From contig NZ_JAIVAE010000012.1 of NCBI RefSeq assembly GCF_020171785.1, positions 1 through 64,000 on the forward strand: a stretch of 64,000 nucleotides of DNA, written 5' to 3'. This document shows positions 1,884-15,713 of this stretch, piece by piece. The DNA is from Guptibacillus hwajinpoensis. Its GTDB lineage: Bacteria > Bacillota > Bacilli > Bacillales > Guptibacillaceae. Position 1 is the stretch's first letter. Each line of letters begins with the position of its first letter. The notes below the pieces were generated by a model, which searched no databases, was not told the origin of the DNA, and saw only the letters and a list, made by a program, of their open reading frames with translations. The position numbers and the translations under genes were made by a program.

Positions 1884-1968
1884 GCCGGTGTGGCGGAATT
1901 GGCAGACGCGCACGACTCAAAATCGTGTTCCGAGAGGAGTGTCGGTTCGAACCCGACCACCGGTACCA
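1884..1968 (+). tRNA. tRNA-Leu (CAA), integration target
   Basis: The acceptor stem GCCGGTG/CACCGGT, CAA anticodon and variable arm identify tRNA-Leu. From position 1914, inside the anticodon stem, the sequence through 1980 is repeated exactly at 15647-15713. The 3' part of this gene is therefore probably supplied by the integrated element, which restores a functional tRNA after insertion. It is the last tRNA of the cluster. Confidence 0.95.
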
Positions 1969-3384: not shown

Positions 3385-3390
3385 TAGAAC

Positions 3391-3429
3391 GAAGAAAAGC
3401 CACCTATTAGTGTAGGTGACTTCGTTTTT
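3391..3429 (+). terminator. terminator of the integrase operon
   Basis: GAAG...CACCTA and TAGGTG...CTTC form an imperfect hairpin followed by GTTTTTG. It closes the integrase-ORF85 operon and separates it from the structured non-coding locus. Confidence 0.75.
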
Positions 3430-3540
3430 GGAAACCAAGGAATGGTCCAATTGAATAGCTGACGGTCAATCAACTAAACACCTTCATTCTAGTCCAAAAA
3501 ATGGGAAAATGCAAGGCTAGTTAAGTGATGCCTTTTTTAG

Positions 3541-3920
3541 GCAGTAGGATTGGTCTATCACTTGCTGGAATGCCTACTAATAGCAAGTAAATCAAACCTT
3601 GATAGGTTAGCTGAAGCCGATGCAATAACTTCAGCGTTATCCACGCTATACAGTTCCTTGTTTCTGTAGTGGATAGACTACGTGAAAGCTACGTTAGTGC
3701 TAGTCGTGGAAGGGTGTTGCAATTAAGGTTGCAGTAGAATAAACCATAAGTACCTAAAGGGAAACTGTCAGGGGCATTTGACACAGTAGGTTTATGTGGA
3801 GAAATCCAGCGATTAAACAAGGTGCATACACACGGATTCCTTAATTCGATAGACCATGTTGTGTAAATTCGCCTACTACTTACAAGATTACTTATTTTAG
3901 TTTTTCTTGTAGGTAGTCAA
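3541..3920 (+). ncRNA. candidate large structured RNA (or single-strand origin)
   Basis: About 380 bp without a convincing ORF but with many helices. GGTCTATC (3552-3559) pairs over nearly 300 nt with GATAGACC (3848-3855), and AGTAGG (3543-3548) with CCTACT (3573-3578 or 3872-3877). Local hairpins are ACTTGCT/AGCAAGT (3560-3588), AACCT/AGGTT (3595-3608), GCTGAAG/CTTCAGC (3610-3635), ATCCAC..TACAG/CTGTA.GTGGAT (3639-3674), GACTA/TAGTC (3676-3705), ACTGTCA/TGACACAGT (3764-3787) and TGGA-GAAA-TCCA (3797-3808). The GAAA tetraloop appears only on the plus strand, and a final 13-bp stem (3875-3917) could end transcription. The alternative is a DNA origin folding as single strand; a DnaA-box-like TTATCCACG sits at 3638-3646. 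I cannot match it to a named RNA family. Confidence 0.5.
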
Positions 3921-3986
3921 TTTTCTGCACCAGCCGTTTTCCTATATTCTCAACCCATGTTGGTAAAGAACAAACCATTAAGCAAG

Positions 3987-5108
3987 TTATTTACTGTAAG
4001 GGGGGTTAAATACTACCTGTCCTTTATGGTTATTAAAGAAATCCATTGGTATAGATCTTTGACACTTATAACTTTCTTCACCAACATAAGTAAAGTGTTC
4101 TCCTAATTTGTACCCAGGACAAAGTACGGCACCCTTCACTTCACCTGTTTGAGGATCAGTCAGGGCAATTAGGTACCTAGCATTATAAGTGGTGAAACCT
4201 AAATTAGTACCAGTATTAATATCTTCTGGAAATTCAGGTGAGTACTTACCGAGGTCAACAGTTTGGCTATCTTGTACTTTAACTTCTAGAACCTGATTCC
4301 TTATATCTGGATAACCACCTTCAAGAGGATCTCCTTCTTTAATGTTATAACCCAATTCTTTTGCTATTAAGTATTCTAAAGCTTGTCCACGGTTTTTAGT
4401 TGATAGATTATCGAGAGTAGTTCCTATGATTTTGTTTTGAACAATTTCTTTTATTTTTTCTAAGCTTAATATTTGTCCTGCTACTGGATTATCTCTAATA
4501 GAACTATTAGAAAGATTTACAGTGTCGCTTATTACCCCAGAAACTTCTTTATCATCCGGATAAAATAAAATAGAGTTCTCATTAGAGAGTATTTTGTCTC
4601 TCTTAAACTGGGATATTATTAACTGTTGCTTAACAGTAGGTTTACCAAACTTCCCAAAGTTCTTGACTATGTGATCTCCAGTCATAATAGTAATAGATTC
4701 AATTTCATGAGAAACAGTATTTACTTTAGTAAGAACAAATCTACTATCACTCGTCATAAGGGGTGGTGAATTTACATATTCAATTTGAACTGAATCAATT
4801 GAAGGATTCCTATTCCAAACCTGTAAGTTGTAGTTCTTTCCACTTGTAACTATATAAGAGTCAAGAAACTCTCTGGTGATTTTAGGAACACCTTTACGTC
4901 TTGGTGGAATAATTGAGAAAGAATCTTGAGGTGCTTTACAAGGAACGCCATTATTTTCAAGAATACATTCAATTCTTCTTCTCATATTAGATCCATCAGT
5001 TCTTGTAACCTTACTAAGCGGAAACTTTTCGCCAATGAGTGGAGTTAAGATTTCACAAAGCTTCGAAGGGTCTGTAAGTGCATCTTTAGAAATTGGTGGG
5101 TTATTCAT
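3987..5108 (-). CDS. type II restriction endonuclease (PD-(D/E)xK)
   Basis: This 373-residue protein is probably the restriction enzyme of the adjacent methyltransferase. The C-terminal half carries a PD-(D/E)xK nuclease core: helix NRGQALEYLIAKELGY (about 239-254), then Pro267-Asp268 and Glu275-Val-Lys277 in PDIRNQVLEVK. The N-terminal 200 residues probably contact DNA. Its start overlaps the XRE regulator's end by 8 bp, giving a controller-nuclease operon divergent from the methyltransferase, as in C-protein-regulated systems. The nuclease name is inferred from motif and context; its recognition site cannot be read from the sequence. Confidence 0.82.
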   Translation of the reverse strand: MNNPPISKDALTDPSKLCEILTPLIGEKFPLSKVTRTDGSNMRRRIECILENNGVPCKAPQDSFSIIPPRRKGVPKITREFLDSYIVTSGKNYNLQVWNRNPSIDSVQIEYVNSPPLMTSDSRFVLTKVNTVSHEIESITIMTGDHIVKNFGKFGKPTVKQQLIISQFKRDKILSNENSILFYPDDKEVSGVISDTVNLSNSSIRDNPVAGQILSLEKIKEIVQNKIIGTTLDNLSTKNRGQALEYLIAKELGYNIKEGDPLEGGYPDIRNQVLEVKVQDSQTVDLGKYSPEFPEDINTGTNLGFTTYNARYLIALTDPQTGEVKGAVLCPGYKLGEHFTYVGEESYKCQRSIPMDFFNNHKGQVVFNPPYSK

Positions 5109-5352
5109 TAATGTCTCCTTTGATATTAAAATTTAATAGATCGCTTGCAGTAACATTTAATGACAATGCTATTTTGTGGAGATTTAAAACGGTAATGTTT
5201 TTTTCGCCTCTTTCAACAGCACCAATGTAAGTTCGGTGTAGACCAGATAAAAATGCAAGTTTTTCTTGAGAATAACGCTTCTTCTGTCTACATATCCGAA
5301 TGTTTTCTCCAAGTAATTCTAGGTAATTTCTATCATGAATATTTCGTTTCAT
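5101..5352 (-). CDS. XRE-family controller protein of the R-M system
   Basis: This 83-residue protein is mostly one XRE helix-turn-helix domain (about residues 12-65: SQEKLAFLSGLHRTYIGAVE). It resembles restriction-modification C proteins in size and position. ATG at 5352 is preferred because GGGAG lies ten bases upstream; an ATG at 5370 would add six residues without a clear ribosome binding site. It is expected to bind the palindromes at 5376-5403, activating its own operon and delaying nuclease expression. Confidence 0.85.
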   Translation of the reverse strand: MKRNIHDRNYLELLGENIRICRQKKRYSQEKLAFLSGLHRTYIGAVERGEKNITVLNLHKIALSLNVTASDLLNFNIKGDINE

Positions 5353-5375
5353 AGTACTATATTCTCCCATCTGCT

Positions 5376-5403
5376 ACTTATAAGTCGACAGACTATTAAT
5401 AGC
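5376..5403. promoter_or_regulatory. C-box-like operator between R-M genes
   Basis: ACTTATAAGT, a perfect palindrome, is followed by CGACA and GACTATTAATAGC. The centre reads AGTC-GACA-GACT. This double symmetric layout resembles C-protein operators such as that of PvuII. It lies just upstream of the controller gene. The assignment rests on pattern and place. Confidence 0.6.
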
Positions 5404-5473
5404 ATTTCCTGTTTAAGTAAGGTGAGGTAAATCAAGGTAATATCCACCTATACGTTCATCTATTAATTAATAG

Positions 5474-5489
5474 TTAGTGTTGGTATAAT
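5474..5489 (+). promoter_or_regulatory. extended -10 promoter of the methyltransferase
   Basis: TGGTATAAT forms a perfect extended -10 hexamer (TATAAT at 5484-5489), 36 bp before the ATG at 5526. No good -35 is seen, which fits an extended -10 promoter. The AGGAGTG ribosome binding site is at 5513-5519. Confidence 0.6.
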
Positions 5490-5525
5490 AAGTTGTAGAA
5501 AAGAACGGATTTTAGGAGTGAAATA

Positions 5526-7262
5526 ATGGATACTACACTTAATGATACATTAAGAACAAGAAAAGAAACTGGATCTCATTTTACATCTACAGGGTTAGCT
5601 GATGTAGTTGCTAAAAGACTAATAAATGAATTAAATAAGCTTGAAATTGATAATCAAAATAAATTAAGAGTACTTGATCCTGCTTGTGGTGATGGTGAAT
5701 TACTTCTTTCATTTAAGCGTCTGGCGGAACTGAATAGTTTTAACAATGTAGATTTGGTTGGTGTCGATGAGAATCAACAGGCAGTCGAAAGGGCTGTTAC
5801 CAGACTGGAAGAAGTTAAGGCTGAAAATCTTGATTTAATACCAAATGACTTCTTAGAAATGATTAATATTGAAGAGAATATTTCATTATTTGAAAATGAA
5901 TCTAAAAAGATTGATCCTGTTGATGTGATAATAGCCAATCCACCATATGTAAGAACACAGGTATTAGGTTCGGAAGTAGCACAATCATTAGCTAAGAAGT
6001 TTAATTTAAAAGGTAAAGTAGATCTATATCAGGCATTTATTATTGCTATGACCATGCAATTAAAACCAGGCGGATTATTGGGTGTTATCACATCTAACCG
6101 TTATTTAACCACAAAAGGCGGGGAATCACTTAGAAAGTTTTTCCGTGAAAACTACGAAATCATTGAAGTTATGGATCTTGGAGATACAAAATTATTTGAA
6201 GCAGCAGTACTACCTTCTATATTCATAGGTAGAAAAAAAAGCAATAAAGTAATTGAAAACAATTCACCAGCTAATTTCTATAAAATTTATGAAGAGAAAA
6301 AGTCAGAATTGATTGATGAAGCAGTTGGTTTTGATTCTGTATTTGAACTCTTGGAAAACCTAGAATCAGGCACGTTTAAAGTTGAAGAAAAGTTTTATTC
6401 TACATTAATAGGTAAACTAATCTTCCCTGAATCTCATAAAGAACCATGGGTCATGGCATCGGATGAAGAATATAAATGGATTGAAGAAGTTAATCAAGCT
6501 TCTTATGCAAGGTTTGAAGACATAGGTGATATTAGAGTTGGTATCAAAACAACAGCAGATAATGTTTTCATAAGTGAGTCTTGGGATGAACTCGATACTG
6601 AATTAAAACCAGAAAGCGAATTATTGGTTCCGTTGCATTCAGCAGATAATGCATCAAGATGGCTACCAATCGAAAAGAAACCGAAAAGAGAAATTCTATA
6701 TACCCATACGATGGTTGATGGTAAAAAGGAAGTTATTGATTTTACACAATACGAACGAGGGTTTAATTATTTATCGTCTCATAGAGAACAGTTAGAAGGC
6801 AGAAAATATGTTACTAAATCTAGAAATTGGTATGAGATTTGGGTTACACAGAATCCTGGGCTATTAAAATTACCAAAATTGATTTTTCCCGATATTAGTA
6901 CTGAACCTAAATTCTTTTATGACGATGGTAGTTGTTTTGTAGATGGCAACTGCTATTGGATTAGTTTAAAAGATGGGGTTGATAATGACCTATTGTACTT
7001 GCTTCTAGGCATAGCTAATACAGCTTATTTAACCAAGTACCATGACATAGCTTTCCAGAATAAACTTTACGCAGGTAGAAGAAGGTACATGACACAATAC
7101 GTGAACAAGTACCCAGTTCCAAACCCTGATACGGTTTATGCTAAAGATATAATAAAGCAAGTGAAAAGTTTGGTGTTTAATGAACTAACTGTTGAGGAAA
7201 AAAGCAAGATTGAGAAAGAAATTGAAGAGTTAACTGAAAAGGCCTTTGGTGTTAAAAAATGA
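5526..7262 (+). CDS. adenine-N6 DNA methyltransferase (TaqI/Eco57I-like)
   Basis: This 578-residue enzyme is expected to methylate adenine at the partner nuclease's site. Residues 15-250 form the catalytic domain: GSHFTSTGLAD at the start (motif X), SAM motif I VLDPACGDGELL (49-60) and catalytic motif IV NPPY (138-141). The order X-I-IV and the C-terminal half, probably the target-recognition region, place it in the gamma class with TaqI and Eco57I-like enzymes. It diverges from the controller and nuclease genes. ATG 5526 follows a good ribosome binding site. A hairpin terminator follows the stop. Confidence 0.92.
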   Translation: MDTTLNDTLRTRKETGSHFTSTGLADVVAKRLINELNKLEIDNQNKLRVLDPACGDGELLLSFKRLAELNSFNNVDLVGVDENQQAVERAVTRLEEVKAENLDLIPNDFLEMINIEENISLFENESKKIDPVDVIIANPPYVRTQVLGSEVAQSLAKKFNLKGKVDLYQAFIIAMTMQLKPGGLLGVITSNRYLTTKGGESLRKFFRENYEIIEVMDLGDTKLFEAAVLPSIFIGRKKSNKVIENNSPANFYKIYEEKKSELIDEAVGFDSVFELLENLESGTFKVEEKFYSTLIGKLIFPESHKEPWVMASDEEYKWIEEVNQASYARFEDIGDIRVGIKTTADNVFISESWDELDTELKPESELLVPLHSADNASRWLPIEKKPKREILYTHTMVDGKKEVIDFTQYERGFNYLSSHREQLEGRKYVTKSRNWYEIWVTQNPGLLKLPKLIFPDISTEPKFFYDDGSCFVDGNCYWISLKDGVDNDLLYLLLGIANTAYLTKYHDIAFQNKLYAGRRRYMTQYVNKYPVPNPDTVYAKDIIKQVKSLVFNELTVEEKSKIEKEIEELTEKAFGVKK

Positions 7263-7310: not shown

Positions 7311-8591
7311 TCAATATTCACCATCTAAATAATTAATTAGTAACCTTCTCATTCTACTACTAGGTATATATAAGTTGATCATTTCTCCTTTTCTAATTCT
7401 GCTTCTCCATATCCACTGAATGAGTTCAGAGAGTGCAAATAAATCTTCCTGTACGTCTATACCTTTCTTAGTAAAGAATTTCTTCTCAAAAGGGTTCATG
7501 AACCGATTAATAACGTATGCCAGTGATTCTTTATGGCTGAAATTATTAGTAGCACGTGTATTAAGAGGGATAAAGGACAACTTTTCTATATCCTTTAGAC
7601 TCTTTATGTCTTTATAATCTTTTGGGGAACCAGCATAACCTTTTCCTTTAAGAGTGGTACGGTCTGCTTTATAACAAGTCCACATATTTAAGTTTGTTCT
7701 TGAATCTACATGACGTCTGAAGTAGGTGTGCATGTTCTTTTTCAATTTTTCAATCATATGTTGGTTTTTATCTTTTCTAAACCAACTAGCAGATAGGGCA
7801 TTTTTATCTTCACCTATATCATTTAACTTTCCATCATGAATGTTAATAAGGGGTTTAATTACATTTCTGATGTAGTCTTTTTCAATTGGCTTATTCTGAT
7901 CATGATCAACCAATTCGAAACCTTTATCAGTATAATGTACAGCCTTAAAAGAGTATTCTATATCATACATGTCATAATAGTATCGTTGTTGCTGTGCTTG
8001 AAAGAGGTAAGTCATAATAAATACGTTCTCAAAGGCTTGAAACACTGATACAGGGAAAGTCCAAAATAAAATAGTATCTTCGAAGAAGTAAAGATTTTCT
8101 GTTTTAGCTAGGTTTTTAATTTTGTCGTATTTTGTGAACTGATACTTACTATCATTATTCCAACGTACTAAGCCTGTAGAATCTTCCACATAAACCATTC
8201 CCGAATCAATAAGCAGCTTAAAGTCATCTTTATTCATTTCATAACGATCTACCACTTCCATAGCCTCATCTAGAATTAATGTATAGTTGCTTGCCTTTAG
8301 TAATTCAATGGTTTCTACATCAACATTTTGAAAAAGCTTATGCGTTGTTGCGATATCCTTTTCATCAATGATTAACCTTTTTAAATCCTCTAATTTTCCT
8401 GATCCCTTATTTACAGGATCATTGAAATTTCTTTCAGGAACACTTTCTTTAATCCTATCTACTTCTTTTAAAAAGGGGGTAATGTAAATAAAGTTAATTT
8501 CTTTATCACTTTGGTTCATGTACTGAATAGACCATGATGTCTTACCACTACCCATTATTGAATCAATGACTATAATATTTGTGTTCTTCAT
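7311..8591 (-). CDS. P-loop helicase-like protein, unknown role
   Basis: This 426-residue protein starts with a Walker A motif at its extreme N-terminus (IMGSGKT, 12-18) and has a Walker B/DEAD-like LILDEA (105-110). Near the C-terminus IWRSRIRKG resembles a helicase motif VI arginine finger. This layout suits a superfamily 2 helicase fold as seen in phage replication proteins. It could serve island replication or work with the OLD nuclease upstream on the same strand. The specific role is not visible. It is monocistronic, with a 458-bp leader. Confidence 0.7.
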   Translation of the reverse strand: MKNTNIIVIDSIMGSGKTSWSIQYMNQSDKEINFIYITPFLKEVDRIKESVPERNFNDPVNKGSGKLEDLKRLIIDEKDIATTHKLFQNVDVETIELLKASNYTLILDEAMEVVDRYEMNKDDFKLLIDSGMVYVEDSTGLVRWNNDSKYQFTKYDKIKNLAKTENLYFFEDTILFWTFPVSVFQAFENVFIMTYLFQAQQQRYYYDMYDIEYSFKAVHYTDKGFELVDHDQNKPIEKDYIRNVIKPLINIHDGKLNDIGEDKNALSASWFRKDKNQHMIEKLKKNMHTYFRRHVDSRTNLNMWTCYKADRTTLKGKGYAGSPKDYKDIKSLKDIEKLSFIPLNTRATNNFSHKESLAYVINRFMNPFEKKFFTKKGIDVQEDLFALSELIQWIWRSRIRKGEMINLYIPSSRMRRLLINYLDGEY

Positions 8592-15646: not shown

Positions 15647-15713
15647 GACTCAAAATCGTGTTCCGAGAGGAGTGTCGGTTCGAACCCGACCACCGGTACC
15701 ATTACATACGTAA
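15647..15713 (+). repeat. attR: 67-bp direct repeat with tRNA-Leu 3' fragment
   Basis: Identical to 1914-1980. It contains 56 bases of the 3' part of tRNA-Leu, from within the anticodon stem, without the 5' half. It is probably the displaced end of the original gene, and the hairpin after it (15718-15750) the original operon terminator. The element spans about 13.7 kb between repeats. Confidence 0.93.

Follow-up and report, generated by a model that had tools for sequence, protein, structure and literature searches.

A structured locus behind the integrase of a tRNA-Leu island in Guptibacillus hwajinpoensis: a candidate non-coding RNA of Bacillales mobile elements

What is made from a region that follows an integrase gene, appears elaborately folded and encodes no evident protein? 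The question was raised by a 64,000-nucleotide stretch of the Guptibacillus hwajinpoensis genome (contig NZ_JAIVAE010000012.1, positions 1–64,000; hereafter the window), in which a preliminary description, made from the letters of the DNA, had marked positions 3541–3920 as a structured non-coding locus beside an integrase. Comparison with relatives confirmed that the structured locus is real, with covariation in both its core and its middle domain. Positions 3541–3920 lie within it, but the conserved locus is longer than the ≈380 bp described, extending over ≈0.5 kb (≈3449–3962, limits drawn by eye), of which the described part is the middle. No listed open reading frame of 50 aa or more lies inside 3541–3920, in keeping with the described lack of a frame with a ribosome binding site. 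The locus stands directly behind the integrase and an 85-aa gene, on the same strand as the integrase. As we read the sequence comparisons, it fairly probably makes a folded non-coding RNA of ≈500 nt from the + strand, an accessory gene of Bacillales integrase islands, prophages and plasmids that would act in trans and be made together with the integrase gene (int).

Covariation and fold

The 5′ core was aligned in 58 sequences, 57 of them distinct and four of them weak, that were fitted to the structure by a covariance model. Pairing was kept in 92.3% of the 1464 cells of its 27 pairs. Both sides had changed in 370 cells, distributed over 24 of the 27 pairs, against a shuffled mean of 101 (standard deviation 8.5), although these cells are not independent events, since a single genus supplied many closely related rows. 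The covariation score was 0.648, compared to 0.161 for shuffled alignments and no more than 0.109 for any of the slid controls. A MAFFT alignment of 17 sequences that was not fitted to the structure, and on which the structure was drawn by eye, gave a score of 0.466 versus 0.165. For the middle domain, the structure was likewise drawn by eye on a MAFFT alignment, using 18 of the 19 extracted sequences (L038 was omitted, being near L105). Its 28 pairs were kept in 92.9% of 504 cells, with 75 both-side changes compared to 21 in shuffles, affecting 21 of the 28 pairs; the score was 0.448 against 0.192 for shuffled alignments and at most 0.110 for slid controls.

Summed over both domains, 45 of the 55 counted base pairs have both-side changes, and every helix counted contributes some except hairpin 2. 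The compensatory changes in homologs that the preliminary description had proposed as a check are thus present, above both shuffled and slid controls. Helix P7 illustrates the pattern: its strands read ACAAGCC/GGCUUGU in one form, AUAAACC/GGUUUAU in the window and UUAUUCC/GGAAUAA in L111. The comparison shows a fold whose core consists of four hairpins; the middle domain includes a pseudoknot and a long-range helix, and in the 3′ part covarying repeats flank a hairpin (Table 1).

Several details of the fold came out differently from the initial picture. Most of the at least seven local stems proposed are conserved, with hairpin 2 lacking any both-side change. The GAAA of the supposed plus-strand tetraloop is present, but in the comparison it belongs to a 7-nt GAAAGCU loop. 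A 3-bp helix closes this loop, which also takes part in the pseudoknot; there, two of the three pairs have changed on both sides, in one of 18 sequences apiece. The long-range pairing over 290 bp, between GGTCTATC and GATAGACC, is fully complementary in the window but only partly kept, or absent, in relatives (by eye), and is weakly supported. RNAalifold, applied to the copies of the genus alone, misplaced hairpin 1, and its result was superseded by the cross-family alignment. A pairing of a 3′ GUCAAG with a conserved CUUGAC was also considered and breaks down in several members (by eye). The GTCAAG word itself, closing an A-rich stretch, recurs ≈20–35 nt behind the second repeat at many loci, not at all of them and not in the window.

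The 3′ part contains two direct repeats, R1 and R2, of ≈25 nt each, which flank the long hairpin. The sequence of the repeat varies between elements (CCATGTTG, CAATCAAG, CCATTCAG, CAAAAGT, CTTCAGT, GCCTGTTGAA and others) and tends to agree within an element. This agreement was tested at 30 of 38 loci, four having no anchor and four near relatives being omitted. The longest word common to R1 and R2 of the same element had a mean length of 7.47, against 5.60 with permuted partners (largest 6.2; 0 of 2000 permutations as high); at a few loci this word differs from the repeat seen by eye. Local alignment gave a mean of 18.7, whereas the highest mean reached by any of 5000 permutations was 14.7. 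At 18 of the 30 loci, at most one foreign R2 fitted R1 better than its own R2 did, and the match was poor at a few (L111, L032, L103 and L114). A search with 6-letter complement words for a partner of the repeats inside the RNA found no consistent place. The simplest guess is that the two repeats bind one shared partner. We would go only very tentatively further, to an RNA that works together with site-specific mobile elements and whose R1 and R2 form an element-specific recognition code, both binding the same element- or host-specific partner; this we consider improbable. If true, the RNA would help tyrosine-recombinase islands to move or to establish themselves, a role for which we know of no description.

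Distribution and genomic context of relatives

With the window copy as the query, blastn found matches in 17 of 150 genomes, including the window's own genome, which carries two more, diverged copies of the locus. A second, chromosome-type form is present in one or two copies per genome in all 14 genomes of the window's genus. With a copy of this form as the query, 14 of the 15 genomes of the family matched, namely the same 14; the one genome of the family's other genus gave no match. A covariance model of the 5′ core (the “R1” model), built from 17 sequences and 27 pairs, matched 44 of 397 genomes of the order: 14 of 14 in the genus and 30 others, with the matches in G031, G063 and G269 weak or doubtful. 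A wider covariance model (the “R2” model) matched 10 of 398 genomes of the class, six of which had already been found in the order scan, and 3 of 398 genomes of the phylum, where there was no match outside the class. The filters of the covariance-model scans were strict, and these genome counts are therefore lower bounds. Among the individual hits, L118 looks false, and L117, L119 and L120 are weak.

A core motif search in named genome records yielded 13 loci, one of them in a metagenome bin of another phylum that is probably misbinned. Apart from that record, all named carriers are Bacillales, and the distribution is patchy. None of 50,697 phage records matched any of four queries. In viral contigs from IMG/VR, a first motif pattern gave no matches, and a looser pattern gave five proviral contigs (L143–L147). 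Matches of ≈50 bp in five Paenibacillus plasmid records were left uncounted, two of them having failed the covariance model.

The surroundings were examined at 40 loci, comprising the order-scan matches outside the genus, the non-chromosome-type matches within it and L038 (36 loci), together with four new class-scan matches. At 23 of the 40, a tyrosine recombinase lies upstream on the same strand and ends 136–605 nt before the core. All 23 match PF00589, and the other 22 are 23–79% identical to the window's integrase. The cargo differs between the islands that carry the RNA (by eye), and at L098 a tRNA array lies upstream. The 17 loci that lack an upstream recombinase include the weak or doubtful L117–L120 and are otherwise varied. 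L038, L105, L109 and L110 have neighbouring small genes in common with the five proviral contigs (by eye). L100 (NZ_CP156676) and L102 (NZ_CP082920) are on plasmids, as is a Planococcus copy (NZ_CP129237) additional to the 40 loci; one of the plasmid records measures 7.6 kb. L127 belongs to a ≈30-kb prophage-like element that carries a large recombinase at the opposite end and splits a comGC-like gene (names by eye). In L148 (1539–2156) and L149 (10416–12119), a prophage-like element splits a comGC-like gene, with a 567-aa recombinase at its right end and the RNA at its left. L094, L103, L106, L108, L113 and L128 have neighbours with no recognised identity.

The chromosome-type copies in Pseudalkalibacillus follow small DUF1659 and DUF2922 genes (by Pfam at one locus, by eye at four others) and stand in shared neighbourhoods without an integrase (five loci read, by eye). 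They also follow a short frame that resembles YvrJ. At L028, L029 and L035–L037, the RNA follows the DUF1659 and DUF2922 genes, and the window's own genome has this arrangement twice, in separate places, as though these genes and the RNA had moved as one unit. That such copies lie behind ordinary genes suggests that the RNA can be useful without an adjoining integrase.

The fixed place and strand behind int at 23 of the 40 loci, and the hairpin directly behind the int region, would also be expected if the locus were a cis-acting 3′ region of the int mRNA, in which hairpin and fold control int stability or level (retroregulation). However, copies without an adjoining int occur in the chromosome-type form, in prophages and on plasmids, and what is conserved is a large fold rather than a single hairpin. 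We regard retroregulation as unlikely.

Strand, transcription and possible function

After removal of three weak rows and one poor pair, the core helices contain 64 G–U pairs against 12 A–C, a bias in favour of the + strand. The same count bears on whether the locus acts as single-stranded DNA, for instance as an origin of replication or transfer, a single-strand origin, or a protein-binding single-stranded DNA as has been proposed for the STAXI motif. Such a function would suit carriers that replicate or transfer, among them the 7.6-kb plasmid record, and a hairpin flanked by direct repeats. It is disfavoured by the chromosome-type copies that the genus keeps in shared neighbourhoods (by eye) and by the excess of G–U pairs, although the latter is less than decisive, G–T pairs occurring in DNA too. 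The single-strand replication origin originally offered as an alternative drew on a DnaA-box-like word, TTATCCACG. The word is inside the locus, but it falls in the 5′ arm of hairpin 4 and is variable among relatives; with the word not conserved and chromosome-type copies present without an integrase, this proposal found no support. A single-stranded DNA element of any of these kinds seems to us quite unlikely.

Several observations weigh against a + strand RNA made with int. The G–U excess in the middle domain is a mere 14 to 9. The single-sequence fold is stronger on the − strand (z = −3.4, with 0 of 100 shuffles as good) than on the + strand, where the gain over shuffles is modest (z = −2.3, 1 of 100). 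A terminator-like − strand hairpin precedes many copies, so that − strand transcription is possible there. At one of 35 loci, L107, the right-hand side carries a promoter-like site of fair quality for the − strand, equalled by 1 of 40 shuffles. Lack of a sigma-A consensus is in itself no demonstration of read-through from int, and it is by inference that we arrive at transcription of the RNA and its tie to mobilisation. A − strand reading, raised by the terminator-like hairpin, was set aside on the G–U and A–C counts.

Upstream of the int-linked loci, of which 20 of 23 were tested, the best sigma-A-like site was never rarer than 12 of 40 shuffles (40 per locus, keeping base composition only). 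Among 12 loci without int, such a site stands out at one, L106; at six, the best site has a spacing of 17 and lies at −271 to −328.

A + strand RNA would be transcribed and act in trans as RNA. In the islands the RNA has no recognisable promoter of its own, and the int transcript would probably include it as the 3′ portion, when the element is mobilised or is establishing itself. Its work there might be structural or lie in binding a host factor, as has been supposed of GOLLD and ROOL; by analogy with these two, a structural or protein-binding role is the most cautious guess.

Comparison with known RNAs and neighbouring features

The comparison with Rfam that had been suggested at the outset matched no family at the RNA. 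This was true of Rfam 15 at the gathering threshold over the whole window, of window positions 3385–3986 at E values up to 5 (with ROOL, GOLLD and OLE among the models), and of the RNA at six diverse loci at E values up to 1. The Rfam models did not detect a group I or group II intron catalytic core. A ribozyme or intron-like RNA, whose direct repeats would mark cleavage or splice sites, could have the large fold with a pseudoknot and the covarying repeats near the 3′ end seen here, but no intron or ribozyme family matched and reading frames are not interrupted (by eye), except at L148, where a whole prophage-like element sits in the comGC-like gene. We consider this explanation highly improbable. 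Models for STAXI, under what is presumably its Rfam number, and for Bacillus-plasmid RNA also gave no match.

ROOL, GOLLD and OLE are listed as Rfam families in PMC12286853, and an Rfam number for Bacillus-plasmid RNA is given in PMC2864571. The window copy resembles ROOL in being carried by an island in a tRNA-Leu gene, but it has ≈500 nt compared to 659 nt for the ROOL that has been studied; many GOLLD members exceed 800 nt. ROOL and GOLLD travel in prophages or phages, frequently close to tRNA islands, and the present RNA shares this trait in the tRNA-Leu island, the L098 array and the five proviral contigs, whereas the lack of any match among the phage records counts against it. A further trait of ROOL and GOLLD is assembly into cage-like homo-oligomers made of RNA alone. 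STAXI is likewise a structured motif that is often near integrase and other DNA-handling genes, and possibly acts as single-stranded DNA (PMC2864571), but it is a pseudoknot in two or three tandem repeats, and none such was seen here. OLE is also a large ornate bacterial RNA (PMC12286853), whereas the present family is tied to mobile elements. Full-text literature searches, and passages of PMC12286853, PMC11109978, PMC8632094, PMC6429828 and PMC2864571, yielded no description of the RNA, supplementary motif lists and most subscription papers being beyond reach. Literature on DUF1659, DUF2922 and YvrJ held nothing on the RNA by title.

The both-side changes, the pseudoknot, the + strand G–U bias and the islands of differing cargo all support the large ornate RNA of the island initially suggested. 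Large ornate RNAs of mobile elements are a kind already known, and this family appears to be new: its sequence is unlike GOLLD and ROOL, its lifestyle similar. To our knowledge, few large structured bacterial RNAs are known, most of them without a settled function. The carriers are Bacillales genera, some perhaps tractable, and the chromosome-type copies and the covarying repeats offer two direct handles on the role of such RNAs.

Table 1. Features of the locus and of the island ends in the window
Feature	Position	Strand	Remarks
Left attachment core, 3′ end of tRNA-Leu CAA, CCCGACCACCGGTACCA	1952..1968	+	exact second copy at 15685–15701
Tyrosine recombinase (integrase), 330 aa	2122..3114	+	Pfam PF00589, E 9.5e-32
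Small protein, 85 aa	3127..3384	+	no Pfam match; small ORFs (open reading frames) here in several relatives (by eye)
Hairpin just 3′ of small gene	3396..3423	−	terminator-like mainly on − strand; counterparts in many relatives (by eye)
AATTGAATA, window form of conserved AACTGAATA-like word upstream of RNA core	3449..3457	+	by eye
Leader hairpin AAGGC..GCCTT, then T tract	3513..3538	+	recurs in relatives (by eye)
Long-range helix, 5′ strand (partner 3848–3855)	3552..3559	+	perfect in window; weakly conserved
Hairpin 1, loop GGAATGCCTACTAAT	3560..3588	+	both-side changes in 7/7 pairs; outermost pair unpaired in 34/51 sequences
Hairpin 2, ACCT TGAT AGGT	3596..3607	+	sequence conserved; no both-side changes
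Hairpin 3, loop GCCGATGCAATAAC with conserved core	3610..3635	+	both-side changes in 6/6 pairs
Hairpin 4, outer 7 bp and inner 4 bp, loop TTCCTTGTTT	3638..3675	+	both-side changes in 11/11 pairs; holds most of DnaA-box-like word
3-bp helix with 7-nt loop GAAAGCT; pseudoknot 3687–3689 with 3699–3701	3681..3701	+	middle-domain comparison
Hairpin B	3715..3736	+	both-side changes in 5/6 pairs
Helix P7, 5′ strand (partner 3789–3795)	3739..3745	+	both-side changes in 6/7 pairs
Helix D, 3764–3768 with 3783–3787	3764..3787	+	both-side changes in 2/5 pairs
Helix P7, 3′ strand	3789..3795	+	middle-domain comparison
Hairpin E	3797..3808	+	both-side changes in 4/4 pairs
Direct repeat R1, ends CCATGTTG	3837..3861	+	matches R2
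Long 3′ hairpin between R1 and R2	3875..3917	+	single-sequence fold; counterparts in relatives
Direct repeat R2, ends CCATGTTG	3939..3962	+	matches R1; approximate 3′ limit of conservation in window
Right attachment core	15685..15701	+	exact copy of left core

The island that carries the locus follows an array of 16 tRNA genes in the window. It measures 13.7 kb and is inserted in a tRNA-Leu gene. Its two ends are identical 17-bp sequences from the 3′ end of tRNA-Leu(CAA), for which shuffles gave an expectation of zero matches. The tyrosine recombinase is its first gene, followed by the 85-aa protein. Behind the RNA, at 3987–7262, are genes for a 373-aa protein (− strand), which had no match in a Pfam search, a helix-turn-helix protein (− strand) and an Eco57I-type N6-methylase (+ strand); together they probably make up a restriction-modification system, with the restriction enzyme assigned by position. 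Next, at 7311–8591, comes a protein of 426 aa that matches ResIII weakly. Its N-terminal DSIMGSGK.SW motif recurs in proteins of related islands (by eye; L030, L031, L032, L097 and L099), and at L097 and L099 the protein with this motif is the next gene behind the RNA. Small proteins of 81–85 aa, some alike by eye, are encoded between integrase and RNA in the window and at L033, L034, L093 and L111; such a protein is possibly an excisionase or a partner of the RNA.
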